Source of the DNA: Rhodopseudomonas boonkerdii
GTDB taxonomy: Bacteria; Pseudomonadota; Alphaproteobacteria; Rhizobiales; Xanthobacteraceae
NCBI RefSeq assembly: GCF_021184025.1
Contig: NZ_CP036537.1
Coordinates: forward strand, 5,237,001 to 5,301,000
Reading direction: 5' to 3'
Length of the DNA stretch: 64,000 bases
In this document: positions 5,323 to 46,133 of the stretch, in pieces
How the letters are laid out: the number at the start of each line of letters is the position of its first letter
Numbering within the stretch: position 1 is the stretch's first letter
Translations under genes and position numbers: made by a program
The notes under the pieces: model-generated
What the model saw: only the letters and a program-made list of their open reading frames with translations
What the model was told of the DNA's origin: nothing
Database searches by the model: none

Positions 5323-5346
5323 GGCATTTTCTGCTTTGATGGAATC

Positions 5347-5492: not shown

Positions 5493-5494
5493 GT

Positions 5495-31022: not shown

Positions 31023-31877
31023 ATGGAACAGCCTCTCGATCTGGACACCGTCCAAGCCTTCGTCCGTGTGGCCGACCTTGGCAGCTTCACTCGCGCTGCA
31101 GACGCGCTGAACACGACGCAGGCCGCCATAAGCCTGAAGCTTAAGAGACTCGAAACGCGGCTTGGCTGCCGTCTCGTCGAGCGTACGCCCCGATACATGG
31201 AGATCACCGCGAAAGGAGCGACGTTTTTGGAGATCGCCCGCGAACTCATTAGCGTGCATGACCGTGCGCTTGCGGTGATGACGCAACCTCGGCAGCGCCT
31301 TGGTATCGGCATCAGCGACCACGTCGCGGGACCGGAGCTCCCCGCTCTGATTGCGCGGATGAACGCCCTCGATCCGCAGCTATTGATCGAGATCCGTATC
31401 GGATCCTCCGGCGACTTACTTCAAAGTTTCGATCGGCGTGAACTCGATACGGTGATCGTCCGCCTGCAGGATGGTCGGGCCGGGGGTGAAATCCTCGCGG
31501 AGGAAAAATTCGGTTGGTTTACATCGCCTGGGTGGCACCATCGGGTGGGCGAACCTCTGTCCATCGCAACTATGGCAGAGCCCTGCGGTGTGCGTGCCAT
31601 CGCTCTACAGCTTCTCGATAAGGCCGGCATACCGTGGAGGGAAGTGTTCGTCGGAGGTGGCGTCGGGGCCGTTTCGGCGGCGGTCATGGCCGGGGTTGGC
31701 GTGGCCGCGCTCGCCCCGCGTATGTTGCCGCTCGGCGCGATTGACATAGGCGCAAAGCTCGGTCTTCCCGATCTACCGTGCTTGCCAATCCTACTACATA
31801 CAAGGGTCAGGGATGGTCGAGCGCGGGAAGCGGTTGACGCCCTTTCTGCGGCGTTCAAAAGCGCCGTGCGCCCCTAA
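31023..31877 (+). CDS. LysR-family transcriptional regulator
   Basis: A 284-aa LysR protein with HTH LDTVQAFVRVADLGSFTRAA DALNTTQAAISLKLKRLETR and effector domain starting GIGISDHVAGPELPALI. It is a clear paralogue of the LysR at 53060 (same length, same order of motifs such as VERTPRYMEI and FVGGGVGAVSAAVMAGVGVA). It is divergent from the tautomerase gene and probably regulates it. The start ATG follows CAAAATC without a strong ribosome site. Confidence 0.9.
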   Translation: MEQPLDLDTVQAFVRVADLGSFTRAADALNTTQAAISLKLKRLETRLGCRLVERTPRYMEITAKGATFLEIARELISVHDRALAVMTQPRQRLGIGISDHVAGPELPALIARMNALDPQLLIEIRIGSSGDLLQSFDRRELDTVIVRLQDGRAGGEILAEEKFGWFTSPGWHHRVGEPLSIATMAEPCGVRAIALQLLDKAGIPWREVFVGGGVGAVSAAVMAGVGVAALAPRMLPLGAIDIGAKLGLPDLPCLPILLHTRVRDGRAREAVDALSAAFKSAVRP

Positions 31878-32629: not shown

Positions 32630-33598
32630 TTATTCCATCTTAATGCCCAGTTCGGTCACCGTTTTCGTCCAGCTTGCAGTCTCACGATCGACGAAGCCAA
32701 CAATATCCTCGTCGGAAATCTGCGGCACGACGGCGCCCTGCACTTCCCATGCTTTGAGGACGGCAGGCTGTGTCAGTGCGCCTTTAACTGCACCGCGGAT
32801 CTTGGCAACGAGATCCGGCGGGGTATTAGCTGGTGCCCAGATCGCATACCAGATCGAGGCATCCAGCTCCGGCCCTCCGGCCTCGGTAATTGTCGGAATG
32901 TCTGGAAAGCGGGACGACCTTTTGGTGACGGTCAGTGCCAAGGCTTTAAGCTTCTGGCCCTCGATCTGAGGTGCCGACGTCCCCATCCCGTCGAACATCA
33001 TGTCGCACACGCCAGCTATTAGGTCGGTGATCGCTGCGGCCGTACCGCGATATGGCACGTGAAGAATGTCCACCCCGGCCTTCCGTTTGAACATCTCGCC
33101 AAGGATATGCTGGGAAGTGCCATTTCCAGACGAGCAGTAGCTCAATTTGCCGGGGTTTTGTTTCGCTTCCTTGACGATATCGGACACGGTCTTGAATCGA
33201 GAGTTCGCTGGGACCACTAGAACGTTCGGAACATCAGCCGTAATCGCAATCGGAATGAAATCCTTGTCGATGCGATAGCCACGTGATGGGTACACGGCTT
33301 CAGCCATAGGCTGGTGAACGCCACCAGCCAAAAGGACGTTTCCGTCCGGAGCAGCCTTTGCGGCCGCGAGCACGCCAATTGTTCCCCCCGCACCTGAGCG
33401 GTTCTCGATGATAATCCTGTGCGGAAGTTGCTCGCTCAGTACCGACGAGATCGGACGGGCGAAACTATCGACGCCTCCTCCCGGTCCGTACGGGACGATG
33501 ATCTTCCCGATCTTAGTCGGCCATTCTGCCGCCGATATCGATCTCGTCGAGTAGGACGTCAATGCCAGGATGACGGCAACAGACAAAAGCGCACGCAA
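32630..33598 (-). CDS. Tripartite tricarboxylate transporter (Bug-family) solute-binding protein
   Basis: A periplasmic receptor of the TctC/Bug family. It has a signal peptide (LRALLSVAVILALTSYSTRS) and the typical sequence IIVPYGPGGGVDSFARPISS, IIENRSGAGGTIGVLAAAKA, PDGNVLL, HVPYRGTAAAITDLIAG and FPDIPTITEAGGPELDASIW. The start is a TTG at 33598 with GGAGG seven bases upstream, giving 322 aa; upstream in-frame Met codons lack this site. Bug proteins bind small carboxylates. It is divergent from the ThDP decarboxylase genes and may deliver their pathway substrate. No TctA/TctB permease gene is near. Confidence 0.9.
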   Translation of the reverse strand: MRALLSVAVILALTSYSTRSISAAEWPTKIGKIIVPYGPGGGVDSFARPISSVLSEQLPHRIIIENRSGAGGTIGVLAAAKAAPDGNVLLAGGVHQPMAEAVYPSRGYRIDKDFIPIAITADVPNVLVVPANSRFKTVSDIVKEAKQNPGKLSYCSSGNGTSQHILGEMFKRKAGVDILHVPYRGTAAAITDLIAGVCDMMFDGMGTSAPQIEGQKLKALALTVTKRSSRFPDIPTITEAGGPELDASIWYAIWAPANTPPDLVAKIRGAVKGALTQPAVLKAWEVQGAVVPQISDEDIVGFVDRETASWTKTVTELGIKME

Positions 33599-33939
33599 GT
33601 TCGATCCTCCCAATGTTGGAACGCACCGGGGATGCAACTGGCATCGGATCATCGTCCTCCTGCGGTCAATGCCGACGCAGAGGCTTTCTCCCCATTCCGT
33701 TCTTGTTGGGAATGACCGTGGCCGCGGACTGCCATGTGGTCCAATTGAAAAGCTTGATCCCAATATTCAGCGTTCATATGGGCAAAAACGCCTACCCAAT
33801 TCCGAGACCGATTGATCCCCCTTATACGCTTAGATGGAAATCAGATTTCCGTCGGTCGCAGATTTGCTGTCTTTGTGCTCGTTCACGCCCCTCCACGTCT
33901 CCGCGGACGGGGTTCGCAGCGACAGGAGGAAGATCTGCA

Positions 33940-34485
33940 ATGGCAGCGCATGACAATCCCGATCAAAAGACCCGACCATGGCAACGCGATGCGTACGCCA
34001 CGTTCAAAGCGACGAGGGTTAGTCACGTCATCTACGTTCCGGACGGCGGCCACCAAGGGTTGATCTCGCTCTGCGCAAACGACCCAGACATCTCGACAAC
34101 CGTCTTGACCAGTGAACAAGAGGGCGTCGGTCTTTCGGCTGGTCTCTGGCTGGGCGGCATCAAAAGTGTGCTTCTCATGCAGTCGAGTGGCGTCGGAAAT
34201 TGTCTCAATCTCTTTTCGCTCCCCGAGGGCTGTCGTCTTCCCCTGGTGCTTCTGGTCACCATGCGCGGGGAATTCGCAGAGTTCGTTCCGACACAAATTC
34301 CTATGGGGAAGCGAACGCCAGCTGCGTTGGAGTTGATGGGATTTGACACCTTTCGTCTCGACGACGAGAGCGCAACTTCGGACATCGTTTCAGGCGCAAT
34401 CGACCACGCGTTTTTCTCAAAACGTTCAGTTGCGGTGCTGATCTCGCAGAGAATGATCGGACGTAAGAATTGGGGTATCAAATGA
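33940..34485 (+). CDS. ThDP-dependent decarboxylase, PYR-domain (alpha) subunit, sulfopyruvate/phosphonopyruvate decarboxylase-like
   Basis: A 181-aa protein equal to the pyrimidine-binding half of a ThDP enzyme: HVIYVPDGGHQGLI, LTSEQEGVGLSAGLWLGG (with the conserved cofactor-activating Glu) and LMQSSGVGNCLNLFSL, followed by PLVLLVTMRGEFAEFVPTQI. This matches ComD-type sulfopyruvate decarboxylase and the N-half of phosphonopyruvate decarboxylase. The ATG at 33940 has AGGAGG upstream. It overlaps the beta-subunit gene by four bases (ATGA), so the two form one enzyme. The 2-keto acid substrate is not known. Confidence 0.85.
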   Translation: MAAHDNPDQKTRPWQRDAYATFKATRVSHVIYVPDGGHQGLISLCANDPDISTTVLTSEQEGVGLSAGLWLGGIKSVLLMQSSGVGNCLNLFSLPEGCRLPLVLLVTMRGEFAEFVPTQIPMGKRTPAALELMGFDTFRLDDESATSDIVSGAIDHAFFSKRSVAVLISQRMIGRKNWGIK

Positions 34486-35063
34486 TCAAGCGTCGACAAG
34501 CCGTTTCATCTATACTTTCTGATCGCGCAGACGGGATTGCAGTCGCGGGCCTTGGCTCGCCGGTTTACGATGTGTATGCCGCAGGCGATCACCCGCTGAA
34601 TTTTTACAATTGGGGAGCGATGGGATCTGCGGTGATGGTCGGTCTTGGCCTTGCATTGGCCCAGCCGAAGCGAACCGTCATCGTTTTCACCGGGGACGGC
34701 GAAATGCTGATGGGATTGGGTAGTCTTTGCACCGTCGCCCAGCACAAGCCATCAAACCTGCACATCGTTGTCCTCGACAACGAGCAGTATGCCGAAACGG
34801 GTATGCAGAAAACTGCGACCGGATTCGGCACTGATCTGTCGGCGGTAGCCGCGGCGGTCGGCTTCGAACATGTTCGGACGCTACGTGATCAGAATGGTAT
34901 CGAGGATCTTCAAAAATCGATCCAGACGTCCGATCACCTCACCTTTACCGTGCTGAAAATCGAGGCAGGCGATCAGCCCCGGACTGTGCCGATGCGGGAT
35001 GGTGCTGCCATCGCATTCCGCTTCAGATCCGCCCTACTCGGACAGGCCCAGGCCGAGGGCTAG
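34482..35063 (+). CDS. ThDP-dependent decarboxylase, PP-domain (beta) subunit
   Basis: A 193-aa subunit carrying the pyrophosphate-binding half of the cofactor site. The ThDP motif starts GDGEMLMGLGSL and ends at the Asn in VVLDNEQYAETG; upstream FYNWGAMGSAVMVGLGLALA is also typical. With the alpha subunit encoded just before it, this resembles ComE/sulfopyruvate decarboxylase beta and AepY/Ppd C-terminal halves. The start at 34482 overlaps the alpha stop. Confidence 0.87.
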   Translation: MIKRRQAVSSILSDRADGIAVAGLGSPVYDVYAAGDHPLNFYNWGAMGSAVMVGLGLALAQPKRTVIVFTGDGEMLMGLGSLCTVAQHKPSNLHIVVLDNEQYAETGMQKTATGFGTDLSAVAAAVGFEHVRTLRDQNGIEDLQKSIQTSDHLTFTVLKIEAGDQPRTVPMRDGAAIAFRFRSALLGQAQAEG

Positions 35064-35226
35064 CCACCGAGGAATGACGTTCTGGAAGGGCGTTGGCGCC
35101 ATGCCATCGACTAACGCCCTTCACGGCCGCGTAAATCATCGCCTTCACCGATCCGATCTGGCTTCACAGGTACACAATGCCGTCTGCATCGGAAGTTGAA
35201 TGACACACGCGTTTGTACGGGGCTTT

Positions 35227-35625
35227 ATGCTCGACCGAGAACTGTGGTCCTTCGTCTAATCCGAGCTGTCAGGTCTTAGGCCATCTACTATGGAGGCCTC
35301 GGCTGCGGCGCCAAGCATTGGCGAAATGGCCGCTATCGCGATCAAAGAGGTTCCCGACAATTTCGTCCTTATCGGCTTGTCGCTGGGCGGATACGTCACC
35401 CACGAGATCGCGCGTCGCGTTCCGGAAAGGGTCACCGCCTTGGTGGTGGTTGCGTCATCCGCGCGGGCGGACACGCTAGAGCAGATAAAACGCAAAGAAA
35501 TTGATGTCCGCCTGCTCAGCGCCTCTTCCGAGGCCTGAGTCCGTCGGGCTCGCGCTCTTGTTGTACCCGATCGAAGGTCCGACAGGTCGTTGATCGACGC
35601 GATCCAGACATGGGAGCTCGATTAA
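35227..35625 (+). pseudogene. Alpha/beta-hydrolase, interrupted
   Basis: The frame from 35227 begins with the family-like MLDRELWSFV, meets a TAA at 35257-35259 and continues in the same frame with PSIGEMAAIAIKEVPDNFVL, IGLSLGGYVTHEIARRVPER (GxSxG nucleophile elbow) and ASSARADTLEQIKRKE. After a shift near 35530, a piece LIDAIQTW remains. Intact homologues run to about 230 residues; premature stop and lost C-terminus make this a pseudogene. Confidence 0.75.
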
Positions 35626-35640
35626 CCAACGCGTCGAAGG

Positions 35641-36030
35641 TCAAGGAACCAACACGCCCTTCCCTGTCGTCTGGGTATCGAATAGACGATAAGCCTCGTC
35701 CGCATTCTGGAGCGCCCACGAATGTGTGAACAGGCTGTCGATGTCCAGTTTCCGCTCCGAAGCAAAGCGGGCGCACGCAGCCTGCCCGTTCTTGCTGAAC
35801 GTCCAGCTTCCAAAAACAGATAGCTGCTTTCTGTTCATATCATTGCTGACGTCGATCGTGACGTCGCCGCCTTCACCAAGGAAAACAACACGGCCCCACT
35901 TCCGAACGGATTTGATGGCCGCGGATCTGGCAACGGCGGTGCCGGAGCAATCCATCGTACATTCGGCACCGAAACCTCCCGTCAGGTCTCTGACGGCAGA
36001 TACCAAGTCGTCTCTACGGGCATCAATGAT
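35641..36030 (-). pseudogene. Zinc-type alcohol dehydrogenase, 3' part (split by IS)
   Basis: This holds the last ~127 codons of a medium-chain dehydrogenase: ARRDDLVSAVRDLTGGFGAE, CTMDCSGTAVARSAAIKSVR, GRVVFLGEGGDVTIDV and YRLFDTQTTGKGVLVP. Joining it to the 5' part at 37541-38206 after removing the IS and one copy of the 9-bp direct repeat restores one frame of 348 residues, reading GASEIIDARRDDLV across the junction. The split is therefore due to the insertion and may be recent. Confidence 0.88.
36022..36030. repeat. 9-bp direct repeat, left flank of IS (target duplication)
   Basis: ATCAATGAT occurs here and at 37541-37549, exactly bordering the element. The perfect repair of the dehydrogenase frame when one copy is removed supports target duplication, although IS3 elements usually duplicate 3-5 bp. 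Confidence 0.75.
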
Positions 36031-36104
36031 TGTTCGTCGTCAGATAATTTGAGACCGCTCAGGCATTTCGAGAAGGGAGGATCTGGCTCATCTAGGGTTA
36101 AAGT

Positions 36105-37085
36105 TTAAGCGGCTTGCAATCGATGCTGCAAGCGGCGGTTTGCAATGGTTTCACGTTTGATGCGCGCACGCTCAGTCAGGATGGTTTCGGCTCGGCCGAA
36201 GTAAACATCCGCAGGCGTGAGGTTGTCGATGCTCTCATGATAGCGGTGATGGTTGTAGTGTTCGACGAAGCCGCTGACCTGACGTTCGAGGTCCCTCGGT
36301 AAATGGTAATTCTCGAGCAGGATGCGGTTCTTCAAGGTCTGATGCCAGCGCTCGATCTTGCCTTGGGTCTGGGGATGATACGGCGCACCGCGCACATGCT
36401 GCATATCCTTGCCCTTGAGCCAGGTGGCCAGATCTTCCGCGACGTAACTTGATCCGTTGTCGCTCAGAAGCCGTGGCCGCTGCTTTATATTGACGTGGTC
36501 CAGGCCTGAGGCGGCAAGCGCCTGATCGAGCGTGGCCGTGACGTCGGAGGCGCACATGGTGGGACCAAGCCTCCAGGCCACAATGTAACGAGAGAAGTCG
36601 TCGAGCACCGTCGATAGATAGTACCAGCCCCAGCCAGTGATCTTGAGGTAGGTGAAGTCGGTCTGCCAAAGCTGGTTGATCGCCGTGGTCTTGTCCTTGA
36701 ACTCATTAGCCGCCTTGATCACCACATAGGCGGGGCTGGTGATCAGGTCGTGCGCCTTCAGCAGCCGATAGACCGAAGCCTCGGAGACAAAGTATTTTCT
36801 CTCGTCGGTGAAGCGCACCGCCAGCTCTCGCGGCGACAGCTCGGGGTGTTCCAGTGCCAGATCGACGATCTGACCGCGGACATCGTCCGGGATGCGATTC
36901 CAGACCCGGTCCGGCTTGGAGCGGTGATCGGCCAGCGCCTCGATGCCACCCTCGCGATAGCGATCGTACCATCTATAAAAGGTGGCTCGCGGGATGCCGA
37001 GCTTTTCCAACGTGCGCCTGGCAGGCAGATGCGATTGCTCGACCAGCGCGATTATTTCGGATTTCTCGGATGCTGGATACCTCAT
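36105..37085 (-). CDS. IS3-family transposase OrfB (DDE integrase)
   Basis: A 326-aa transposase. The N-terminal HTH is RTLEKLGIPRATFYRWYDRY REGG. The rve/DDE core has the first Asp in LWQTDFTYLKITGWGWYYLS, the second in LLSDNGSSYVAEDLATWL and the Glu in HPQTQGKIERWHQTLKNR. The C-terminal HYNHHRYHESIDNLTPADVY is typical of IS3 members. The ATG overlaps the OrfA TGA, so expression is probably coupled by reinitiation rather than the classic -1 frameshift. Confidence 0.93.
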   Translation of the reverse strand: MRYPASEKSEIIALVEQSHLPARRTLEKLGIPRATFYRWYDRYREGGIEALADHRSKPDRVWNRIPDDVRGQIVDLALEHPELSPRELAVRFTDERKYFVSEASVYRLLKAHDLITSPAYVVIKAANEFKDKTTAINQLWQTDFTYLKITGWGWYYLSTVLDDFSRYIVAWRLGPTMCASDVTATLDQALAASGLDHVNIKQRPRLLSDNGSSYVAEDLATWLKGKDMQHVRGAPYHPQTQGKIERWHQTLKNRILLENYHLPRDLERQVSGFVEHYNHHRYHESIDNLTPADVYFGRAETILTERARIKRETIANRRLQHRLQAA

Positions 37086-37456
37086 GCCTCGTTTTCCCCA
37101 GCCCCGTTCATGCTTTTTTTGAGCAGGCGGTTCTCCAGGGTCAGGTCGGCCACCACCTCCTTCAATTCGGAGGCTTCGCGGCGAAGGTCTTTCACCTCAC
37201 CGGACGTGGCGGAACGGGCCGTGTCACCCGCCAGGCGGCGTTTGCCGGCCTCCAGAAACTCCTTCGACCAACCGTAATACATCGAGGCGGCAATGCCTTC
37301 GCGGCGGCACAGCTCGGAGATGTTCTCCTCGCCGCGCAGTCCTTCCAGCACGATACGGATCTTCTCTTCCGCCGAATACTGCCGACGCGTCTGCCGCCGG
37401 ATATCTTTTAGCACTTGTTCTGCGGGCGCTTTGCCCAGTTCGGATTTCTGCTTCAT
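37082..37456 (-). CDS. IS3-family transposase OrfA
   Basis: A 124-aa DNA-binding partner of OrfB. It has a helix-turn-helix (YSAEEKIRIVLEGLRGEENI SELCRREGIAASMYYGW) and a C-terminal leucine-rich coiled coil (ELKEVVADLTLENRLLKKSM). The ATG is preceded by GGAGC. Together with OrfB it makes up the coding content of the element at 36031-37540. Confidence 0.92.
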   Translation of the reverse strand: MKQKSELGKAPAEQVLKDIRRQTRRQYSAEEKIRIVLEGLRGEENISELCRREGIAASMYYGWSKEFLEAGKRRLAGDTARSATSGEVKDLRREASELKEVVADLTLENRLLKKSMNGAGENEA

Positions 37457-37540
37457 CTTCGCTCCTGACGGCTACGATGAACCAGAAATCCTCCTTTCGT
37501 GAAGTCCCTCATTTGGTCTCAGAGGCGATGACGCCGAACA

Positions 37541-37549
37541 ATCAATGAT
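37541..37549. repeat. 9-bp direct repeat, right flank of IS
   Basis: ATCAATGAT, the partner of the copy at 36022-36030. Read on the minus strand it encodes the Ile-Ile-Asp of the interrupted dehydrogenase. Confidence 0.75.
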
Positions 37550-38206
37550 CTCGCTTGCTCCGAATTCCTTGGCTCGCTGTAGCCTGCCCTCATCAATATC
37601 GAGCGCAATCACTCGCGCACCCATCGCCGCCGCGAGTTGCGTTCCGCTCAACCCGACCGGGCCTTGGCCGAAGATCGCGATGGTCTCGTTGCCACGTAGT
37701 CCCAGGCGATCCAGACCGCCCCACGCCGTGCCGGTACCGCAAGAAATGGCGGCGCCCGCCTTAAAGGACAAATCCGCCGGGAGCGCAATGATCGAGTCTG
37801 CGGGGACGCGCATGAACTTGGCATGTGCGCCATCGCCGTTCGCGCCAAAGGTCGTCGATCCGTCGTCGCACATCTGGGTCCAACCGCCTCGGCACTGGTG
37901 GCAGCACCCACAGCCTGCGTAATGATGGTTCATCACACGTGTGCCGATCCTGGCCAATGGGCTCCGAACGCCCTTACCGGCCTCAACAACAACGCCGCAT
38001 GGTTCGTGTCCGGCAATGATGGGTTTGTCCGACTTCTTCCCCAGACCGATGGAGGCCGCTCCGTCGGCCGCGCGGTAGTATTTTAAATCACTACCGCACA
38101 TACCGGACGCCTTGATCTCGATGATGACGTCCCCGGGTCCCGGAGTCGGATCGGGCACGTCTCGCACTTCGAGTTTGCGATTTCCGAGAAAATAGACCGC
38201 TTTCAT
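37541..38206 (-). pseudogene. Zinc-type alcohol dehydrogenase, 5' part (split by IS)
   Basis: The first 222 codons of a medium-chain, threonine-dehydrogenase-like enzyme. Visible are the catalytic zinc ligands in GMCGSDLKYY and IIAGHEPCG, the structural zinc cysteines in HYAGCGCCHQCRGGWTQMC, and the Rossmann motif AIFGQGPVGLSGTQLAAAMG. The reading frame runs into the IS and ends there with unrelated residues. Before insertion it probably interconverted an alcohol and an aldehyde/ketone in the surrounding pathway. Confidence 0.9.
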
Positions 38207-38254
38207 TGAGCTTATCCGCCAGTTCTCGTCGTATTTTCTTGAGCAGGAAGTGGC

Positions 38255-39667
38255 TCAGTTCGATTGCGAGAGGTTCAACAACTTGCCGGGGTTCATCAGC
38301 AGATCCGGATCAAACGCCACCTTCAGGCTCCGCATGAGACTAAGCTCGGTCGCCGAGCGATGGGCTTGAAGGAGTTCGGTTTTAGCCTGACCGATGCCGT
38401 GCTCCGCAGAGAACGATCCGCCGAGGTCAATGGCCGTCCCGTACACGATCTCGTTCACGGCCCGCATACTTTCCGAGGTCGGCGCAAGCTCTCCATCTAC
38501 CGGGAAAATGACATTGAAATGGATGTTGCCGTCGCCGACGTGCCCGAAAGGTACGACGTTCGCCTCCGGAAAAGCCTTCTCGAGCTGTGATCGACCATGC
38601 TTGAGTAGATTAGCGACCTGCGCGATTGGCACAGACACATCGTGCTTGATATCTCGCCCGGCTTTCTTCTGAAGTTCGGTCTGGTCTTCGCGCAACCGCC
38701 AGAACTGCTTCTGCTGATCCACGTTCTGAGCAATGGCGGCGTCAACGACCAGACCGTCCGAGATGGCATCAGCAAGGAAGGTTTCGAGCAAATCTTTCAA
38801 GCCGTCCGTTTGCCGGGATGACGTCAGTTCTATCAATACATAGTGGGATGCGGCCTCCACGGGCGAGCGGAGACCATGAGATTTCGCCAAATCAATGCAA
38901 GGACCTGACAGGTATTCGATCGCGCGAACGTTCCCGTCGGCTGCGGACCGGAGCTTTACCCAGAGACGCAGAACGTCATCTTCGGTCTCAAGGGCACAGA
39001 ATGCGATTTCCCTGACGACGGGCGCCGGCACGAGCTTCATGTTCGCCGCCGTAATGAAGCCGAGCGTGCCTTCCGAACCCGCAAACAGATGCTTCAAAGC
39101 GTACCCGGCGTTGTCTTTCCGCAGGCTGCGAAGTCCGTCCCATATGCGACCGTCCGGGAGGACAGCCTCGATCCCCAGAAGAAGGTCGCGAGCGCTTCCA
39201 TAGCGAACGGCCGAAATGCCGCCAGCATTCGTTGCGAGCGCCCCTCCGAGGGTCGCTGTCCCCTCCGAGGCAAACGATAGAGAAAAATGCGCATCTGCTT
39301 CCTCGGCGGCGGCTTGCAGATCGGCAATCGTAACTCCAGCTTCGGCCACGATCGACAGATCGACATTGTCCACCTTGCGGATCGTCCGCAGGCCCCCGGT
39401 CGTGACAAGGACCTGCTTTCCGGAAGCGTCTGGAGTCGCTGCTCCGACCAAACCGGTGTTGCCGCCTTGGGGGACCATCGCCGTCCCCATCGCGTGACAG
39501 ATTTGAACGGCTTGCGATAGCGCCTTGGTTGAACTCGGGCGAAGCACGCAGGCCGCGCTGCCATGGACCAACCCGCGCCAATCGGAAAGATACTGTTGGG
39601 CGATCTCCGGATCGGTAATGCACTGCGGTCCGAGAAGCTCCTTGAGCTGCTCGACAACCGTTCTCAT
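38255..39667 (-). CDS. FAD-linked D-2-hydroxyacid dehydrogenase (GlcD/Dld-like)
   Basis: A 470-aa flavoprotein of the PCMH-FAD/VAO family. The FAD-binding part has MVPQGGNTGLVGAATPDASG and GGALATNAGGISAVRYGSAR; the C-terminal domain has FGHVGDGNIHFNVIFPVDG and the final SFSAEHGIGQAKTELLQAHR. Such enzymes oxidise D-lactate, glycolate or D-2-hydroxyglutarate to the 2-keto acid. The ATG at 39667 overlaps the thioesterase stop (ATGA). Inferred role: supply of the 2-keto acid to the ThDP decarboxylase encoded nearby. Confidence 0.9.
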   Translation of the reverse strand: MRTVVEQLKELLGPQCITDPEIAQQYLSDWRGLVHGSAACVLRPSSTKALSQAVQICHAMGTAMVPQGGNTGLVGAATPDASGKQVLVTTGGLRTIRKVDNVDLSIVAEAGVTIADLQAAAEEADAHFSLSFASEGTATLGGALATNAGGISAVRYGSARDLLLGIEAVLPDGRIWDGLRSLRKDNAGYALKHLFAGSEGTLGFITAANMKLVPAPVVREIAFCALETEDDVLRLWVKLRSAADGNVRAIEYLSGPCIDLAKSHGLRSPVEAASHYVLIELTSSRQTDGLKDLLETFLADAISDGLVVDAAIAQNVDQQKQFWRLREDQTELQKKAGRDIKHDVSVPIAQVANLLKHGRSQLEKAFPEANVVPFGHVGDGNIHFNVIFPVDGELAPTSESMRAVNEIVYGTAIDLGGSFSAEHGIGQAKTELLQAHRSATELSLMRSLKVAFDPDLLMNPGKLLNLSQSN

Positions 39668-40080
39668 ATCAATTTCCATGTCGATGTCGCATGCGCGATG
39701 GCCTCACCTGACTGATCGGTGGCGAGGGATTGCAGGAAGAAGGTCTTGCGTCCCTTCTTGAGAAAGGTCGCGCGACACGTCACCGGTCCAGAACGAACTG
39801 ATGCAAGGTATTGAACCTTCATCTCAATGGTCGCACCCGCACCGAATTGGTGATGCAAGAGATGTCCCATCGAAATATCGAGAGCGGTCGCAAGGACGCC
39901 ACCATGGAGGGACCCCTGCGGATTGTACGCATGGGGTTTCACCTCGAACTTCACGGTGCAATCGTCATGGCCGTATGCCACCTCCATTCCAAAAAACCGG
40001 GACAGGAAGAATGAACCGAACTCATGGCGGCCGTCCCCGACGGCCGCCTCGATGAGACCTCTTACATCGCTCTCAACCAT
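39664..40080 (-). CDS. PaaI-family hotdog thioesterase
   Basis: A 138-aa acyl-CoA thioesterase-like protein. The hotdog-fold signature is NPQGSLHGGVLATALDISMG; MKVQYLASVRSGPVTCRATF and KTFFLQSLATDQSGEAIAHA follow. The ATG at 40080 (MVESDVRGLIEAAV) is chosen because it lies 11 bases after the CaiB-gene stop; a longer frame to 40167 overlaps that gene. It may hydrolyse or proof-read the CoA ester made by the adjacent CoA-transferase. Confidence 0.85.
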   Translation of the reverse strand: MVESDVRGLIEAAVGDGRHEFGSFFLSRFFGMEVAYGHDDCTVKFEVKPHAYNPQGSLHGGVLATALDISMGHLLHHQFGAGATIEMKVQYLASVRSGPVTCRATFLKKGRKTFFLQSLATDQSGEAIAHATSTWKLI

Positions 40081-40091
40081 CGTTTTCCTCA

Positions 40092-41327
40092 CTATTCGGC
40101 GGCCTCGGTCCTGTTCGGGCCGAAAGCTCCGCCCTCGGCCAGTTTGTCGAATTGCGCCCTCGACCATCCCAGCCAGTTCTCGAAAACTTCGAACGTATGC
40201 TCTCCGAGCAGCGGCGGCGCAGTGGAATCCGCGGGGGCTTCGTCGTCGAAGCGGATCGGCCTGGCGACGAATTTAACGTCTCCTGCAACCTTGTGTTCGA
40301 CCGATTGGACCATATTGCGCTCGATGAGCTGCGGAGCCTCACAGACCTCGCCGACCGTCCGTATCGCACCGCACGGAATCCCGGCTTTGCCCAGAAGTCC
40401 GAGCCATTCCTCGCGGCTCTTGCCAAGAAAAATCGGGTGCAAAAACTCGACGAGAATCGCGCGGTTCGCCGCACGTTTGGGGGCCTGATCGAAGCGCGGG
40501 TCCTTTTCCAGATCCTTGCGATCGATCACGTCGCAGAACAGGCCCCAAAATTTGTCGTTTGCCACGCCGACATTGATCCATCCGTCGCTCGCCTGGAAGG
40601 TCTCGTACGGGCTGATCGTCGGATGGACGTTGCCGCGTCGCTTCGGGCTTTCGCCGGTCGCGAAGTACATGCCCGCGTTGAAAGTCAGCAGTGACGCCAT
40701 AGCGTCCAGCATGGATACATCCACGCGGCCGCCCTTCCCGCTCCGCTCGCGCTTCATGAGCGCGGCCAGAACGGCCTGCGACGCGTAAAGACCGGTCACA
40801 AGGTCTGCGATCGAGGTGCCGACTTTCATCGGCGGCCCCACAGGATCACCTGTGATGTCCATGACGCCGGATTCTCCCTGCAGGATCAGGTCGTATCCCG
40901 GGCGATTGGCGTCGGGGCCGGTCCGTCCAAATCCGGAAATGCTGCACTGGAGTAGACGCGGGTTGTTCTTGCTCATCGCGTCAAAGCTGAGGCCCCAGCG
41001 ATCGAGGGTGCCCGGCCGGAAATTGTCGATCACGACATCGGCCTTTTGAGTAAGCGCCAATACTGCGTCGCGCCCCGCAGGCGACTTGAGATCGACGGTG
41101 CAGCTTCTCTTGTTGCGGTTGACGGAGAGGAAGTACGAACTTTCACCGTTAACGAATGGGGGGCCGTAGCGGCGACTTTCGTCGCCGTTACGGGGATCCT
41201 CGATCTTGACAACGTCCGCCCCGAGATCGCCGAGGTGCATCGTCGCAAAAGGTCCGGAGACCACGCGGCAGAGATCAAGAACTCGAACGCCAGAGAGCGG
41301 CTCGTTGTCAGACGATCGCATCCGCAA
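40092..41327 (-). CDS. CaiB/BaiF-family (class III) CoA-transferase
   Basis: A 411-aa enzyme that moves CoA between acids. Family features are LSGVRVLDLCRVVSGPFATM, LGDLGADVVKIEDPRNGDES, NRNKRSCTVDLKSPAGRDAV and the catalytic Asp around residue 146 (RPGYDLILQGESGVMDITGD), then DVSMLDAMASLL. It overlaps the end of the HAD gene by 20 bases or less (start 41327 or 41321) and precedes the thioesterase gene. It probably activates the acid produced by the pathway. Confidence 0.92.
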   Translation of the reverse strand: MRMRSSDNEPLSGVRVLDLCRVVSGPFATMHLGDLGADVVKIEDPRNGDESRRYGPPFVNGESSYFLSVNRNKRSCTVDLKSPAGRDAVLALTQKADVVIDNFRPGTLDRWGLSFDAMSKNNPRLLQCSISGFGRTGPDANRPGYDLILQGESGVMDITGDPVGPPMKVGTSIADLVTGLYASQAVLAALMKRERSGKGGRVDVSMLDAMASLLTFNAGMYFATGESPKRRGNVHPTISPYETFQASDGWINVGVANDKFWGLFCDVIDRKDLEKDPRFDQAPKRAANRAILVEFLHPIFLGKSREEWLGLLGKAGIPCGAIRTVGEVCEAPQLIERNMVQSVEHKVAGDVKFVARPIRFDDEAPADSTAPPLLGEHTFEVFENWLGWSRAQFDKLAEGGAFGPNRTEAAE

Positions 41328-42009
41328 GATCCTTCATGGTTTCAACGGTGATGTCGGGCTGGTGGGGCGTCTGCTCGAACGGACGGTTGCGACGATTGAT
41401 CATCGCGCTGCGCATACCGGCCGACTTGGCGCCGATCACGTCGAACGCATGGTTCGCAACGAAGAGGATCTGCTCCGGCTTGAGGCCGAGGATCTCGGCG
41501 GCCTTGGTGTAGGTAGCTCGGTGCGGCTTGAACGAATTCGCTTCGGCAACCGAGATCACTTTGTCGAACGGCACCTTGTGATACTTCTTGGCGGTTTCCA
41601 GCATGTCCGGATCGCCGTTGGAAAGGACCACGAGCTTGTACTTGGTCTGGAGCTTCGCCAGAGCTTCCGGAACTTCAGGGAAGCACTCAAGCTTTTCGAT
41701 CTCGCCGACGAGATACTTGACCTCGTCCTTGGTGTACTTGATGCCCGAGCGGTCCAGCACCTGCGAGACCGCACGATGGCCGATTTCGCGATACGGCGTG
41801 TGTTCGCGGTGAAGTAGCGCGTCGATCATCGAATTTTCGAAGTGCGTACGGCGCCACCAGGTGACGAACGAGTTCGGGTTGCCCGTCCAGCCCTTCTCCT
41901 TGAGAAACGGAGTCGCGATTTTGACGAGGCCGCCCTGCATATCGACCACGGTACCGTACTGGTCGAACATGCAGACTTTCACTTCATTCTTGATTTCTTC
42001 GTAGCTCAT
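41308..42009 (-). CDS. HAD-family hydrolase, 2-haloacid dehalogenase (type II)-like
   Basis: A 233-aa HAD enzyme. Nucleophile Asp16 is in KVCMFDQYGTVVDMQ (FDxYGT as in L-2-haloacid dehalogenases rather than DxDGT). Ser/Asn of motif II are in KLVVLSNGDPDM, Lys of motif III in NSFKPHRATY, and the acidic motif is FVANHAFDVIGAKSAGM. Type II dehalogenases convert L-2-haloacids to D-2-hydroxyacids with inversion. The start 42009 follows GAGGGAAG. It heads the minus-strand operon HAD-CaiB-thioesterase-FAD enzyme-(alcohol dehydrogenase), divergent from a LysR gene. Actual dehalogenation is inferred from motifs only. Confidence 0.85.
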   Translation of the reverse strand: MSYEEIKNEVKVCMFDQYGTVVDMQGGLVKIATPFLKEKGWTGNPNSFVTWWRRTHFENSMIDALLHREHTPYREIGHRAVSQVLDRSGIKYTKDEVKYLVGEIEKLECFPEVPEALAKLQTKYKLVVLSNGDPDMLETAKKYHKVPFDKVISVAEANSFKPHRATYTKAAEILGLKPEQILFVANHAFDVIGAKSAGMRSAMINRRNRPFEQTPHQPDITVETMKDLADAIV

Positions 42010-42089
42010 TTGACTTCCCTCGGTTGACGTTATGGGAGCTTGATAGGTCCGATGCGCATATTTCAAAAATGGATTTGTCTTCTTGTTTT

Positions 42090-42104
42090 ATTCGTCTTAT
42101 GAAT
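42090..42104. promoter_or_regulatory. Probable LysR box (T-N11-A)
   Basis: ATTC-N7-GAAT, an interrupted palindrome with the T-N11-A core of LysR-type regulators, sits 20 bases before the LysR start and 80 bases before the divergent HAD start. It could serve autoregulation and activation of the catabolic operon. Confidence 0.5.
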
Positions 42105-42124
42105 AGTAGAGAGGAATTCGCGAC

Positions 42125-43030
42125 GTGAACCTGCGATCGATCGATCTGAACTTGCTGGTGGCGCTGGACGCTTTGCTGTCTGAGCGACATGTCACCAAAG
42201 CGTCCGACAAGGTCGGCCTCAGCCAACCGGCCATGAGCAACGCACTTAGCCGTCTGCGTGGGATGTTTTCGGACGAGCTCCTCGTGCGAACAGCGACAGG
42301 AATGACGCCTACGCCGCGAGCGCTCGAACTGGTCGATCCGCTTCGCCAACTCCTGCGGCAGGTTGAACGGGTTCTCGAAAGCGACGCGGGCTTCGATCCG
42401 GAAGCGACCAGACGAACCTTCACGATGCGGATGTCGGATATTCTGGCGTGCCTTCTGTTGCCGAAGCTCATGGCCCAGAGCCGGAATGCTCCGTCGATTG
42501 GATATAACGTCCTGCATCTGCCGCCAGCTCAGACGATCGACGCTCTCGAAAGAGATGAGGTTGATCTCGCAATCAGCATGGGGCTCGATCACTCCAATGC
42601 CATCCGATCCAAGGAGTTGCTGCGGGATCGCATGGTTTGCATCATGCGGAAGTCGCATCCCGTCGCGCGATCCAAAACCATCTCGTTCGAGGACTTCATT
42701 GCGCAGGAACATATGAAGGTCTCGATGAGCCCCACGGACCTGAGATTCGTCGATGACGTACTTGGCGAAATCGGTCGCGAGCGCAAAATCGTTCTCAATG
42801 TCCCTCACTGGCTCGTCGTTCCTCATGTGTTGAAGAAAACCAATTTGATTGCGGTGATGCCGGGCCAGCTTGCCGCTGTACTCATGGACGCGGATCTGAA
42901 GATGTTCGATGTCCCCTTCGAGTCCGCGCCCTTTTCGTGGTTGATGTACTGGCATCGCCGCTACGACCAGAGCAACGCAAACCGCTGGCTTCGCAATCAA
43001 GTCCAAGCGGTTTGCGAGAGCTTCAATTAA
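42125..43030 (+). CDS. LysR-family transcriptional regulator (NodD/NahR-like)
   Basis: A 301-aa regulator whose N-terminus IDLNLLVALDALLSERHVTK ASDKVGLSQPAMSNALSRLR is of the NodD/NahR subgroup, which commonly responds to aromatic or chlorinated ligands. The effector domain shows VDLAISMGLDHSN and a C-terminal MYWHRRYDQSNANRWLRNQV, also typical of that subgroup. The start is a GTG at 42125. It is divergent from the HAD-CaiB operon, and its stop overlaps that of the convergent MFS gene (43027-43030). Confidence 0.9.
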   Translation: MNLRSIDLNLLVALDALLSERHVTKASDKVGLSQPAMSNALSRLRGMFSDELLVRTATGMTPTPRALELVDPLRQLLRQVERVLESDAGFDPEATRRTFTMRMSDILACLLLPKLMAQSRNAPSIGYNVLHLPPAQTIDALERDEVDLAISMGLDHSNAIRSKELLRDRMVCIMRKSHPVARSKTISFEDFIAQEHMKVSMSPTDLRFVDDVLGEIGRERKIVLNVPHWLVVPHVLKKTNLIAVMPGQLAAVLMDADLKMFDVPFESAPFSWLMYWHRRYDQSNANRWLRNQVQAVCESFN

Positions 43031-44436
43031 GCGCTTACACGCGCGGTCGTCTGCGCAGTGACACGGTCGTCCGCATCGACGTTGCCGACGTCCTCAAGGC
43101 CGCGTCCCTTGGTTTCGAAGCCAAAAATCAGGAAGATGACGGCCTGGAATACGAGTATTCCGGCGAGCGTTGCGAGAACTCCAAACAGGCCTTTCCAGGC
43201 GAAGATGGCGACCACGACGAACTGGACGATTGCCGTGGCGATGCGACCGGCGGTGGCGCTGATCGCCGTTCCGCGCAGTCGATACTTTGTCGGAAACAGT
43301 TCCGGAACATGCATCGCGAACCCTGTGGCCAGCATCACGTAGATCACCGAGACCAAGCAGAAGCCGACGACGATGAGACCTGCGCCATCTCCCATGAACG
43401 GATAGATGAAGCCCAAGGCCGCCGCGACTAGGGACGAACCGATAATCGAGGCCTTGCGACCAATGCGATCGGCCAGCAACAACCCAATGAACGAGCCGAT
43501 AGGTCCACCGAGCGACATCAGGGTCGTGAACTCGAGCGACGATACGACGCTGTGCCCTCCCTTGATCAAGAACGTGGGGAGCCACCCTATGAAGCCGTAG
43601 AGGCTGAACCCGACGACGACGTGCAGAAGACAGCCAAGCAGGGTGCGGCTCAGGAATGGCGGCAGAAACAGCTTCCAGACTGATCCGGCAGGAGATGTGT
43701 CACGCGCGATCTCGGTCACGGGCGGAAGCGGTCCTTTTTTGGACGCTTCGGTTTCGATTGCGCGCAGAACCTGTTCGGCCTCTTCCGTAAGTCCATTCTC
43801 AGCCAGCCAGCGCGGAGATTCCGGCATGGACTTTCGCATCACCCAGATGACCATCGCGAGAACACCCACGATGCCGAACATATATCGCCATCCGAAAGTG
43901 GGAATGACCCACAGGCCAATGATCGATGACGCAAAGAGCGCGAAGTTGGTGATGACGGCGAGCAGTCCGATCCATCGCCCCCGAGAGGATGCCGGGACGA
44001 ATTCCGTCAATGTTGCGTAGCCAACGACGATCTCGGCTCCCAACCCAATGCCGATCACGAAGCGGCATGCGATGAGCCACGTCATGTTCGGCGCAAACGC
44101 GGCCACCAGCGAGGCAAGTCCGAAGATCGCAAGATTGATTTGATAGGTGAATCGCCGCCCGTATCGGTCGCCCAGGATGCCCGCAAACCACGCACCGATC
44201 GTCATGCCGACGAATGTCGCAGAAACGAATGTGGCGTTTAGTTCGAGGGTAGACCATCCCTCCTTCAGGACCGCGCCGAGGACACCACCGGCGAGGTAGA
44301 TGTCGAAAGCATCGAGGAACATGCCTGCCCCAATGAGCGCCAAGATGCGCCAGTGGAATGAGCAAATCGGCAAGCGATCAAGACGCGCGCCTGCGTTCAA
44401 ATTGGTGGTGTTTGGAGTTATCCCCGCAGTCTGCAT
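43027..44436 (-). CDS. MFS transporter, AAHS (aromatic acid:H+ symporter)-like
   Basis: A 469-aa permease with 12 predicted helices. Motif A is in AGILGDRYGRRFTYQINLAI, and there is GIGLGAEIVVGYATLTEFVP (sugar/acid-porter type), a central charged loop with ESPRWLAENGLTEEAEQVLR, and a second motif A-like LLADRIGRKASI. This is typical for inner-membrane uptake of aromatic or other organic acids (PcaK/NiaP-like). It is upstream of nothing else on its strand until the aldehyde dehydrogenase gene and probably imports the substrate of the local pathway. Confidence 0.9.
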   Translation of the reverse strand: MQTAGITPNTTNLNAGARLDRLPICSFHWRILALIGAGMFLDAFDIYLAGGVLGAVLKEGWSTLELNATFVSATFVGMTIGAWFAGILGDRYGRRFTYQINLAIFGLASLVAAFAPNMTWLIACRFVIGIGLGAEIVVGYATLTEFVPASSRGRWIGLLAVITNFALFASSIIGLWVIPTFGWRYMFGIVGVLAMVIWVMRKSMPESPRWLAENGLTEEAEQVLRAIETEASKKGPLPPVTEIARDTSPAGSVWKLFLPPFLSRTLLGCLLHVVVGFSLYGFIGWLPTFLIKGGHSVVSSLEFTTLMSLGGPIGSFIGLLLADRIGRKASIIGSSLVAAALGFIYPFMGDGAGLIVVGFCLVSVIYVMLATGFAMHVPELFPTKYRLRGTAISATAGRIATAIVQFVVVAIFAWKGLFGVLATLAGILVFQAVIFLIFGFETKGRGLEDVGNVDADDRVTAQTTARVSA

Positions 44437-44651
44437 TTCCCGTCCCTGACATTGTTGTCGGTTTGGGCGCAGTCTCCACTCGGGGGGCGTGAAAGCTAAT
44501 GGATATCCGGAATTCCGTCATTCGCCTGACCGATGAGGCGTTTCGTCGCAGCTCATAGCAAGGTTACACATCCCGCGACGACGCCACCCATGACGTCCAC
44601 GGGTGGCGTTGCGGATTTGCTGTTGGCGGAAGATGCGCGGCGCGACGGGAC
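44437..44651. other. Spacer with hairpin 44581-44609
   Basis: Perfect 9-bp arms ACGCCACCC (44581-44589) and GGGTGGCGT (44601-44609) flank an 11-base loop, 43 bases after the aldehyde dehydrogenase stop. There is no T-run, so it could be a Rho-dependent stop, an attenuator or an operator for the MFS gene. No gene is present in this stretch. Confidence 0.5.
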
Positions 44652-46133
44652 TTAGTTCAACCGCATGATGAAAGGGTTTGCAGGCCTTTCGCTCGCGTTG
44701 TTGATCCACGTCGTTTTGACCTGCATGTAGCTCTTGATCATGTCTTGGCCGCTCTCACGTCCGAGACCGCTGTCCTTCACTCCGCCGAAGGGAGCCATAA
44801 AGCTCAGTGCGCGGTAAGTGTTGATCCAGACCGTGCCCGATTGAAGTCCTTTTGACATACGGAACGCGCGAGGCATGTCCTTGGTCCAAACACCGGCGGC
44901 AAGTCCGTAATTCGAGTTGTTGGCAATCCGCAGAGCATCCGCTTCGTCATCAAACGGGATAACCGCCAGCACCGGTCCGAAGATTTCGCGCTGAGCAAGC
45001 TGCGAGGCGTTATCCACGTCTCGGAAGATGGTCGGTTGGACGAACAGACCGCCAGTTGCGTACTTGATGGGCTCGCCGCCGAACGCAACGACTGCCCCTT
45101 CCTTCTTCGCGTCCGCAATGCAGGAGATCACCTTCTGATAGTGTGGCAGATTGGCAAGAGGGCCCATCTGCGTTTCCGGATCGAGCGGGTCGCCGATCTT
45201 CACGCCCTCCGCCAGTTCACGAATCTTCGACAAGAACAGGTCGTAGACCGAGCGCTGGAGAAGCAGACGCGATCCTGCGATACATGTCTGGCCCGCCGCC
45301 GCGAAGATCCCGGAAGCAACGCCTGCCGCCGCCGCATCCAGGTCTGCATCCTCGAACACGATATTGGGCGACTTCCCGCCAAGCTCCAGCGTTACGTGCT
45401 TGAGATCACCGGCGGCGGCCTTGTTGATGGCTTTACCAGCGGCGTCCGAGCCGGTGAAGGCGATTTTCGCCACGTCTGGGTGGGCGACCAGTGGAGCGCC
45501 GACACCCTGCCCGGTGCCGCAGACCACGTTCACGACGCCCGCTGGAAAACCCGCTTCTTCAAATAGCTCCGCAAATGCAATCGTGGACGCACTCGCATAT
45601 TCCGAGGGCTTGATCACGAACGTATTTCCAGCCGCGAGACCGGGGGCGAGCTTCCAGGCGAGAAGAAGCAGCGGAGAATTCCAGGCGGTGATTGCGGCGA
45701 TAACCCCCAACGGCTCCCAGGTTGTAAAGACGAAATGGTCGGACTTGTCGATCGGAAGGACGCCGCCCTCAACTTTGTCGGCCAATCCGCCATAGTAGTA
45801 AAACCATTGAGGAATAGTCTTCAGCTGAACCAACATCTCATTGATGAGCTTGCCGTTATCTCGCACCTCAAGCTCTGCCAGCCGTTCAGCATTGGCTGAG
45901 ATCAGGTCTCCGGCGCGGCGAAGCATAGCGCCCCGCGCCGTCGCCGAAATGCCTGCCCATTGCGACGATCCGAATGCGGTCCTAGCGGCCGCCACGGCGG
46001 CATTGACGTCGGATTGATCGCTATCCGGAATCTCGCACCAATTTTCATTGCGATACGGGTCGAGGCTGGGCATCCATTTCCCAGAAGCCGCCGGCCGCAA
46101 TTTCCCATCGATCAGATTTTCAAAACGTTGCAC
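44652..46133 (-). CDS. NAD(P)-dependent aldehyde dehydrogenase
   Basis: A 493-aa ALDH. The catalytic Cys284 is in GQTCIAGSRLLLQ, and the general base Glu250 with cofactor loop is in VTLELGGKSPNIVFEDADLD. TAWNSPLLLLAWKLAPGLAA and TFVIKPSEYAS follow the oxyanion Asn pattern, and FTGSDAAGKAI is the Rossmann segment. The C-terminus ALSFMAPFGGVKDSGLGRES is normal. In the local pathway it could oxidise the aldehyde released by the ThDP decarboxylase to the acid used by the CoA-transferase; this is inference from context. Confidence 0.93.
   Translation of the reverse strand: MQRFENLIDGKLRPAASGKWMPSLDPYRNENWCEIPDSDQSDVNAAVAAARTAFGSSQWAGISATARGAMLRRAGDLISANAERLAELEVRDNGKLINEMLVQLKTIPQWFYYYGGLADKVEGGVLPIDKSDHFVFTTWEPLGVIAAITAWNSPLLLLAWKLAPGLAAGNTFVIKPSEYASASTIAFAELFEEAGFPAGVVNVVCGTGQGVGAPLVAHPDVAKIAFTGSDAAGKAINKAAAGDLKHVTLELGGKSPNIVFEDADLDAAAAGVASGIFAAAGQTCIAGSRLLLQRSVYDLFLSKIRELAEGVKIGDPLDPETQMGPLANLPHYQKVISCIADAKKEGAVVAFGGEPIKYATGGLFVQPTIFRDVDNASQLAQREIFGPVLAVIPFDDEADALRIANNSNYGLAAGVWTKDMPRAFRMSKGLQSGTVWINTYRALSFMAPFGGVKDSGLGRESGQDMIKSYMQVKTTWINNASERPANPFIMRLN

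Follow-up and report, generated by a model that had tools for sequence, protein, structure and literature searches.

A recurrent, modular gene cluster in Rhodopseudomonas boonkerdii that may serve the catabolism of a substituted dicarboxylate

The stretch of DNA analysed in this work (hereafter the window) comprises 64,000 nucleotides of the 5.63-Mb single-contig genome of Rhodopseudomonas boonkerdii (G000:C1:5237001-5301000). Between positions 32630 and 46133, it carries a real, recurrent and modular cluster of known enzyme kinds: a haloacid dehalogenase (HAD) type II hydrolase, a CaiB-type coenzyme A (CoA) transferase, a thioesterase and a LysR regulator, together with a flavoenzyme, a two-subunit thiamine diphosphate (ThDP) enzyme, an alcohol dehydrogenase (ADH) and an aldehyde dehydrogenase (ALDH). 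These roughly ten genes seem to have been passed around, and reassembled, among soil bacteria. Given their content, their linkage, the recurrence of their modules and their active-site signatures, all of which were observed, we tentatively read them as a modular cluster, spread by horizontal transfer, for the catabolism of a small (approximately C4-C5) epoxy- or halo-(hydroxy)dicarboxylate, with a probability of about 0.45. No description of such a cluster was found in the open-licence literature, subscription journals being outside that search.

A core of four genes recurs with optional modules

The principal genes of the cluster are as follows.

42125..43030, plus strand: LysR regulator (Pfam), divergent from the HAD gene
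41308..42066, minus strand: HAD type II hydrolase, above the TIGR01428 cut-off, with a D-x-Y-G-T nucleophile and an Ala-x-His motif
40092..41327, minus strand: CaiB-type class III CoA-transferase (CoA_transf_3, 449 bits)
39664..40167, minus strand: hotdog thioesterase (4HBT; TIGR00369, 56.2 against a cut-off of 36.6)
38255..39679, minus strand: D-2-hydroxy(di)carboxylate dehydrogenase dependent on flavin adenine dinucleotide (FAD), GlcD/D-2-HGDH-like; nearest solved structures 3pm9 and human D-2-HGDH 6lpn
37472..38206, minus strand: Zn alcohol dehydrogenase, N-terminal piece (ADH_N); its 3' end overlaps an insertion element
35641..36006, minus strand: Zn alcohol dehydrogenase, C-terminal piece (ADH_zinc_N), searched separately from the N-terminal piece
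~33940..34485, plus strand: ThDP decarboxylase alpha subunit, with a VPD-G/A-GH motif and a weak sulfopyru_alph score
34470..35063, plus strand: ThDP decarboxylase beta subunit (TPP_enzyme_C; sulfopy_beta 147.3 bits against a cut-off of 221.5)
44652..46133, minus strand: ALDH, with betaine-aldehyde dehydrogenase as its best NCBIfam match, the 25 families shown all scoring below cut-off

Family-model scans recovered every gene family that an earlier sequence-only reading of this stretch had listed, each matching its family, and agreed with it that the ADH gene is interrupted; this gene lies in two pieces with an IS3-type element between them. The HAD, CaiB, thioesterase and FAD genes overlap end to end (gaps of -20, -76 and -16), and are hence read as one transcription unit, with ADH next on the minus strand; a gap of 58 bp separates the divergent LysR gene from the start of HAD.

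Genome contigs were scanned with an alignment built from five HAD proteins, identifying 323 stretches with a relative, of which the best 80 were kept; many of these loci come from Bradyrhizobium, and hence are non-independent. At E <= 1e-10 and 40% coverage, the neighbours across the 80 loci included relatives of CaiB (47), LysR (47), the thioesterase (40), the major facilitator superfamily (MFS) transporter (28), the flavoenzyme (11), the Bug receptor (10), ALDH (10), the N-terminal part of ADH (8), and the ThDP alpha (3) and beta (3) subunits. When identity thresholds were applied, HAD, CaiB, thioesterase and LysR were found together in 39/80 loci, spread over 13 named genera, with Bradyrhizobium contributing 21 of the 39. 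The same approach detected ALDH (at least 55%) in eight loci, Bug (at least 45%) in five, the flavoenzyme in ten, ADH in four and ThDP in three; an MFS gene at least 60% identical was present in 25/80, with Bradyrhizobium the sole named genus. Thus, among the nearest relatives of HAD, the core is frequent rather than universal. A chance neighbourhood is ruled out by these 39 loci and the recurring modules; the earlier proposal that the genes belong together has thus held, as their grouping recurs in other genomes.

The modules can be combined in different ways. The Achromobacter denitrificans locus (L065) contains LysR, HAD, CaiB, thioesterase, Bug, ALDH, ADH and the two ThDP subunits, although these genes are ordered otherwise than in the window. 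The Bradyrhizobium niftali locus (L023) combines ThDP with HAD, CaiB, thioesterase and FAD. Unbroken relatives of the ADH gene are found in L065, L069 and L073, with the N-terminal piece 76-78% identical, and an 81% identical relative of the window's ALDH is found in L222. In L011 (G074), HAD, ThDP alpha, ThDP beta and ALDH stand side by side on one strand, with a distant ThDP pair (43/51% identity). A possible second partnership of HAD is with a ketopantoate-reductase-like (ApbA) gene, which lies nearby in L048, L057, L058, L012 and L097 (the L058 gene being labelled by a scan, and that of L097 by annotation).

The HAD hydrolase falls between two known families

The HAD protein scored 156.5 bits against the curated type II model TIGR01428 (cut-off 125.4). 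Its nearest solved relatives are cis-epoxysuccinate hydrolases and L-2-haloacid dehalogenases, at nearly equal scores of 85.4 and 82.8 bits respectively, and a profile search ranked a dehalogenase (3um9) first, at 106.9 bits against 102.9 for an epoxysuccinate hydrolase. Fourteen of the 15 tracked active-site positions were invariant in 80/80 HAD relatives (D35, Y37, T39, R72, R73, H75, S149, N150, K180, Y186, A204, H206, F208 and D209), with the other, F76, being Phe in 75 and Tyr in five. In common with the L-2-haloacid dehalogenases 1qq5 and 3um9, the window's protein retains D-x-Y-G-T, Arg72, the Ser149-Asn150 pair, Lys180 and Asp209. However, ahead of the conserved Asp, those enzymes have Ser-x-Asn, a motif of catalytic weight in L-2-haloacid dehalogenases, where all 80 relatives have Ala204-x-His206. 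This H206 aligns with His190/His221 of the epoxysuccinate hydrolases, and with an Asn in 1qq5, 3um9 and 1zrm; the first residue of the motif is Ser in 1qq5 and 3um9, and Ala in the 1zrm chain.

The nucleophile D18, proton-donor R55 and water-activating H190 of the epoxysuccinate hydrolase CESH[L] (PDB 8wnh, 8wmt) correspond to D35, R72 and H206; besides the catalytic Asp and this Arg (R55/R72), the two proteins have in common an Asn, a Lys, Ala-x-His and a further Asp. They differ in that Gln20 is replaced by Tyr, and that Glu212, of the Glu-His dyad, appears to lack a conserved counterpart: the nearest position, in a gapped part of the alignment, is Glu in the window and Gly in 59/80 relatives. 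They also differ at the Tyr58/Arg59 clamp, discussed below. By these tests, the hydrolase appears to belong to neither the L-2-haloacid dehalogenases nor the known epoxysuccinate hydrolases, although its mechanism is probably of the sort used by both, via a covalent ester on Asp. It was rejected as a phosphatase, having D-x-Y in place of the D-x-D that HAD phosphatases usually carry. According to the sections of the DehRhb study consulted (PMC6100074), this dehalogenase has a His/Glu dyad of its own, such that the His alone does not exclude dehalogenation.

The subfamily and its kin are numerous, with 7897 of the 8000 candidates scored reaching E <= 1e-30. Among the matches listed, Bradyrhizobium sp. 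ORS 111 supplies the nearest one for which an organism is named (93%), and all source-given names among the 120 entries shown are some form of 'haloacid dehalogenase'. Such names may mislead.

Dicarboxylate signatures in the flavoenzyme and its neighbours

Of all the clues to the class of substrate, the strongest appears to be the pocket of the flavoenzyme, as judged from its residues. This protein aligns best to 3pm9 and human D-2-hydroxyglutarate dehydrogenase (D-2-HGDH; 6lpn), and keeps the latter's Arg386, Thr390, Lys401, His434, His441, Asn443, Glu475 and His476, with Tyr432 replaced by Phe. Residues for both carboxylates, the metal and the hydroxyl are therefore all present, including the two-carboxylate pocket (R386, T390, K401, Y432, N443) save for Y432F, in a bacterial protein that, unlike D-2-HGDH, is encoded in an operon with HAD. 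The same residue set is found in nine of the ten matches from HAD loci, the tenth being a partial sequence that does not reach these positions. In the parts of the D-2-HGDH literature consulted (PMC7801405, PMC10589216), the second carboxylate is held by Thr390, Lys401 and Asn443 in the case of D-2-hydroxyglutarate and by Thr390 and Lys401 in that of D-malate, and the aligned pocket residues bind substrate and metal but differ in GlcD and LDHD at Thr390/Lys401/Asn443. Having a dicarboxylate pocket at this step makes it more likely that the pathway handles a dicarboxylate.

Other genes give hints of the same kind. The best NCBIfam match of CaiB is succinate-glutarate CoA-transferase, although at 357 it is far below the cut-off of 750, and its nearest solved chains are 10uh (named formyl-CoA transferase), 4ed9 and, third, 9br6 (succinate-hydroxymethylglutarate CoA-transferase, SUGCT). 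A CitE-type gene is present in six beta/gamma HAD loci (L054, L067, L071, L073, L076 and L082) and in G754; the six of these seven genes that were scored are nearest to RipC, the itaconate C-C lyase, and a more distant CitE-type gene is found in L055. These loci resemble itaconate degradation in placing a class III CoA-transferase beside a RipC-like lyase, and differ from it in their lyases being far below the RipC cut-off and in their extra HAD and ThDP modules. Two Halorussus plasmid HAD loci have a thioesterase, CaiB, an MR/MLE enzyme, an Ldh-family enzyme and a tartrate-dehydrogenase-like gene nearby, the last scoring 467.2 and 464.6 bits, slightly under the cut-off of 470.4.

The ThDP pair belongs to a clade seen within HAD clusters

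The window's ThDP alpha subunit is 68-73% identical to proteins of L023, L065, L095 and L222, and the VPD-G/A-GH motif was found in 9/9 aligned members, with VPDS in the unnamed chain 9u8r. Its start is a predicted one, and a sourceless 181-aa protein among the listed matches was taken to be the window's own. The nearest solved relative of the beta subunit is 9iz3_B, the RhiEF beta chain. Three functions are named for two-subunit ThDP enzymes, connected with coenzyme M, rhizocticin and lumichrome, in the portion consulted of one report (PMC12746152), from which LumKL is known here. The window's pair shares the split alpha/beta layout and related sequence of ComDE and RhiEF, but falls below the ComDE cut-offs, and differs from ComDE, RhiEF and LumKL in its catabolic context with ALDH and CaiB. 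Against the sulfopyruvate decarboxylase models, the alpha subunit scored 115.2 (TIGR03845, cut-off 147.95) and the beta subunit 147.3 (TIGR03846, cut-off 221.5); against the phosphonopyruvate decarboxylase model (TIGR03297), they scored 63.9 and 111.9 relative to 312.5, although low scores are expected of single subunits against a fused model. Where these soil proteins carry labels of the 'sulfopyruvate decarboxylase' type, the labels are probably mistaken.

A genome scan with the L065 alpha subunit set the window's clade apart, as identity fell from 82% to 56%; the protein listing falls off more gradually, with roughly 80 proteins at 60-86%, then others at 55-61%. At E <= 1e-70, the clade was detected in 1/349 genomes of G393's order (G393's own), 1/65 genomes of G396's genus (G754) and 1/146 genomes of G372's genus (G372's own). 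Across 39 HAD-bearing genomes scanned, drawn from 40 of the 80 loci, it occurred in three, always inside the HAD cluster. The sole case reached from ThDP first, G754, has ALDH, ThDP alpha, ThDP beta, a CitE-like gene, thioesterase, CaiB, LysR, MFS and HAD within approximately 15 kb, with other genes interspersed. The clade hence lies inside a HAD cluster in all five genomes for which the context was seen (window, L023, L065, L095 and G754), four of these being the window itself or loci reached via HAD. The ALDH clade (E <= 1e-195) was likewise found in 1/300 genomes of G393's order, namely G393 (the L065 genome), with at most five candidates scored per genome.

More distant relatives have other surroundings. 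Beta-subunit matches occurred at 80 places in 62 of the 297 genomes of the window's order. None of the 34 fetched from the 79 places outside the window had HAD within ~8 kb, with ALDH nearby in four and CaiB in one; adding L011 in G074, which was fetched earlier, HAD was beside a ThDP paralogue in 1/35 loci of this order, these paralogues being at most ~52% identical to the window's. All eight HAD genomes among the 297 hold a ThDP paralogue (7/7 without the window; hypergeometric 1.2e-5), a co-occurrence that is not used as evidence here, since genome size confounds it and adjacency was found only in G074 (the G081 contig being too short). A relative of the alpha subunit was found in 38 plasmid records, the best at 55%, and seven of these loci were viewed: ALDH was nearby in six, a CoA-transferase in four, a CoA-ester lyase in three and HAD in none. 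The six with ALDH (L098-L102 and L104), from Mesorhizobium, Sinorhizobium, Deinococcus, Sphingobium, Variovorax and Burkholderia, look like a wider catabolic guild, with a CoA-transferase in 4/6, and MaoC with a CoA-ester lyase in three.

Discussion

The favoured pathway would begin with uptake of a substituted dicarboxylic acid through the MFS or Bug systems, after which the HAD enzyme would hydrolyse a C-X bond (epoxide or halide) via a covalent aspartyl ester to give a 2-hydroxydicarboxylate. In the branch formed by the conserved core, CaiB would make the CoA ester, which a CitE-type lyase would split in several beta/gamma members, and the thioesterase would free CoA. In the branch formed by the optional modules, the flavoenzyme (or the Zn-ADH) would oxidise the 2-hydroxyl to a 2-oxo-dicarboxylate, from which the two-subunit ThDP enzyme would remove CO2, leaving a semialdehyde for oxidation by ALDH. 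A D-2-hydroxydicarboxylate would thus be the hinge of the system: HAD would form it, the flavoenzyme would oxidise it, and CaiB could activate it. The most specific candidate would be the conversion of cis-epoxysuccinate or halosuccinate to (2R,3R)-tartrate or D-malate. By the configuration rules, C2 of (2R,3R)-tartrate is arranged as in D-malate, and therefore a HAD of the epoxysuccinate type would go well with a flavoenzyme of the D-malate type. The best-known relatives of the ThDP pair use analogues of oxaloacetate that bear an anion at C3; sulfopyruvate and phosphonopyruvate are oxaloacetate analogues, making it reasonable for a relative to act on a 2-oxo-dicarboxylate. Every reaction in this scheme, as well as the reaction order and the substrate, is what we infer from the genes; the order from hydroxyacid to 2-oxoacid, aldehyde, acid and CoA ester is plausible. 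The scheme gives a testable substrate class for the numerous HAD subfamily, and for the two-subunit ThDP family.

A bolder form of this proposal, which we hold to be doubtful, is that the ThDP pair represents a fourth two-subunit ThDP function, decarboxylating a 2-oxo-dicarboxylate of the oxaloacetate/oxaloglycolate type in a new oxidative route with a novel HAD subfamily. If true, epoxysuccinate or halosuccinate would be converted to tartrate or D-malate, then to a 2-oxo-dicarboxylate, a semialdehyde and an acid, beside the CoA/lyase branch. The HAD subfamily catalysing the first step of this route would be distinct from both the classical haloacid dehalogenases and the known epoxysuccinate hydrolases.

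Several results weigh against the dicarboxylate pathway. In the portion of the epoxysuccinate hydrolase study consulted (PMC10869282), Tyr58/Arg59 hold the second carboxylate, and opposite these the window's HAD has His75/Phe76, a placement judged from the ungapped motif, as pairwise alignments gap there. The haloarchaeal HAD relatives (36%) keep the cap motif, but R72 is missing; the tartrate link comes from two congeneric Halorussus plasmids, and the other three of the five haloarchaeal loci viewed are without it. The RipC/Ccl model NF038242 gave 111.5-146.4 against a cut-off of 375 in L054, L067, L071, L073, L076 and L222, and no CitE-like gene was seen in the window's own cluster. The ADH gene is broken in this genome, and the host may be without that step unless the flavoenzyme covers it. 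As many as 31/80 HAD loci had no window neighbour above threshold; of these stretches, eight are shorter than 10 kb and 14 are at least 16 kb long. HAD loci from wider draws mostly lack CaiB: it was found in none of L010-L013, the other HAD loci of the first 121 genomes; in one of six further loci of the window's order, this probably being L056 again; and, as with the thioesterase, in none of the stretches for four further loci from G393's order (where 5/300 genomes have HAD), one probably being L075 again. Lastly, ThDP, FAD, ADH and ALDH are missing from most HAD stretches fetched, and hence are not needed for the core.

This last pattern bears on whether the cluster is a single pathway, as the sequence-only reading had proposed, and synteny gave a split answer as to whether its genes have unrelated contexts in other genomes. 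The proposal is favoured by HAD, CaiB, thioesterase and LysR co-occurring in 39/80 loci, and by ThDP, ALDH and ADH relatives recurring as optional modules in HAD clusters; the 34 ThDP-paralogue loci without HAD, and the 31/80 HAD loci without neighbours, count against it. Two guilds might instead share one neighbourhood, with the HAD-CaiB-thioesterase-LysR core and a ThDP-ALDH(-ADH) module acting on separate substrates, and having been joined by horizontal transfer within a catabolic island. Such a union would explain why ThDP was unseen in 77/80 HAD stretches, HAD was unseen in 34/35 ThDP paralogue loci, 6/7 plasmid loci viewed have the ThDP pair with ALDH nearby and no HAD, and the window's ThDP genes are on the other strand, beyond the broken ADH. 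However, the specific ThDP clade was seen only inside HAD clusters (5/5), the ALDH clade is rare outside them, the ThDP-bearing HAD clusters differ in arrangement, as would be expected from selection more than from a single accident passed on by descent, and in L011 another ThDP pair, with ALDH, is linked to HAD. We consider two separate guilds to be somewhat unlikely.

The remaining alternatives concern the substrate. The sequence-only reading ran from a monocarboxylic 2-haloacid through a D-2-hydroxyacid, 2-oxoacid and aldehyde to an acid, and while the type II model score, the retained dehalogenase residues, the first rank of 3um9 and the presence of a D-2-hydroxyacid flavoenzyme are all consistent with this, a plain 2-haloacid start is undermined by Ala-x-His standing, as in epoxysuccinate hydrolases, for the Ser-x-Asn of 1qq5/3um9, by the cis-epoxysuccinate hydrolases scoring about as high, by the Lys/Thr/Asn second-carboxylate pocket of the flavoenzyme, rather than the hydrophobic one of LDHD/GlcD, and by the best CaiB scores being with dicarboxylate enzymes. 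Hence this version is probably wrong, and we regard it as improbable. Its own main alternative, a sulfolactate/sulfopyruvate or phosphonopyruvate route, draws on ComD/ComE and RhiE/RhiF being the nearest named families to the ThDP subunits, and on many relatives being source-labelled 'sulfopyruvate decarboxylase alpha subunit' or 'phosphonopyruvate decarboxylase'. Yet neither decarboxylase family's curated cut-offs are reached by the subunits (a low score being expected with the fused phosphonopyruvate model), none of the cluster genes scanned reached the cut-off for a sulfoacetaldehyde or phosphonate enzyme, and neither route is known to involve CaiB, the thioesterase or HAD. It is therefore unlikely, with a very slight chance of being correct. 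A mandelate-like pathway, in which an aromatic 2-hydroxyacid is processed by the flavoenzyme, ThDP decarboxylase, ALDH and CoA-transfer, would suit the transporter of the AAHS type, the benzoylformate decarboxylases among the weak beta-subunit matches, and the phenylacetaldehyde dehydrogenases among the ALDH matches. It is similarly remote, as the flavoenzyme pocket is charged rather than hydrophobic, CaiB matches dicarboxylate enzymes best, the AAHS gene at >=60% identity is limited to Bradyrhizobium among named genera, and HAD is left without a role.

Genomic setting and neighbouring genes

GC content between approximately 12 and 50 kb of the window is mostly below that of the flanks, and no HAD match (E <= 1e-40) was found in the 17 other same-genus genomes searched; both fit a horizontally acquired island. 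The further features of the cluster are as follows.

43027..44436, minus strand: AAHS-type MFS transporter (TIGR00895, 166.5 bits against a cut-off of 418.55)
36022..37549, minus strand: IS3-type insertion element splitting ADH, with rve and HTH_Tnp_1 open reading frames (ORFs) and inverted repeats
37082-37456, minus strand: insertion-element ORF (HTH_Tnp_1)
36105-37085, minus strand: insertion-element ORF (rve)
35212..35607, plus strand: alpha/beta-hydrolase-like remnant between ThDP beta and ADH, similar to an L085 ORF
32630..33763, minus strand: TctC/Bug solute receptor of a tripartite tricarboxylate transporter (Pfam TctC, 214 bits)

The label 'IS3-type' is a reading of the element's apparent ORF and repeat layout; the inverted repeats are 35 nt long, imperfect and 77% complementary (36022-36056/37515-37549). 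The ThDP alpha and beta genes have a 16-base overlap, and are transcribed divergently from Bug. The remnant matches the L085 ORF at 5312-6028 with 42% identity over 134 residues (E 8e-28); that ORF adjoins ALDH and looks like an alpha/beta hydrolase, a label with no family scan behind it.

Two LysR genes that look alike (31023-31877 and 53060-53914) flank the region, and in Pandoraea capi a 50% identical relative of the former (L067 5402-6256) is found close to the HAD cluster. Approximately 13 kb from the cluster, an MR/MLE-type enzyme is encoded at 59512-60666, scoring 104.7 as a talarate/galactarate dehydratase against a cut-off of 500; in L082 and in the Halorussus loci, too, HAD has MR/MLE genes in its vicinity.

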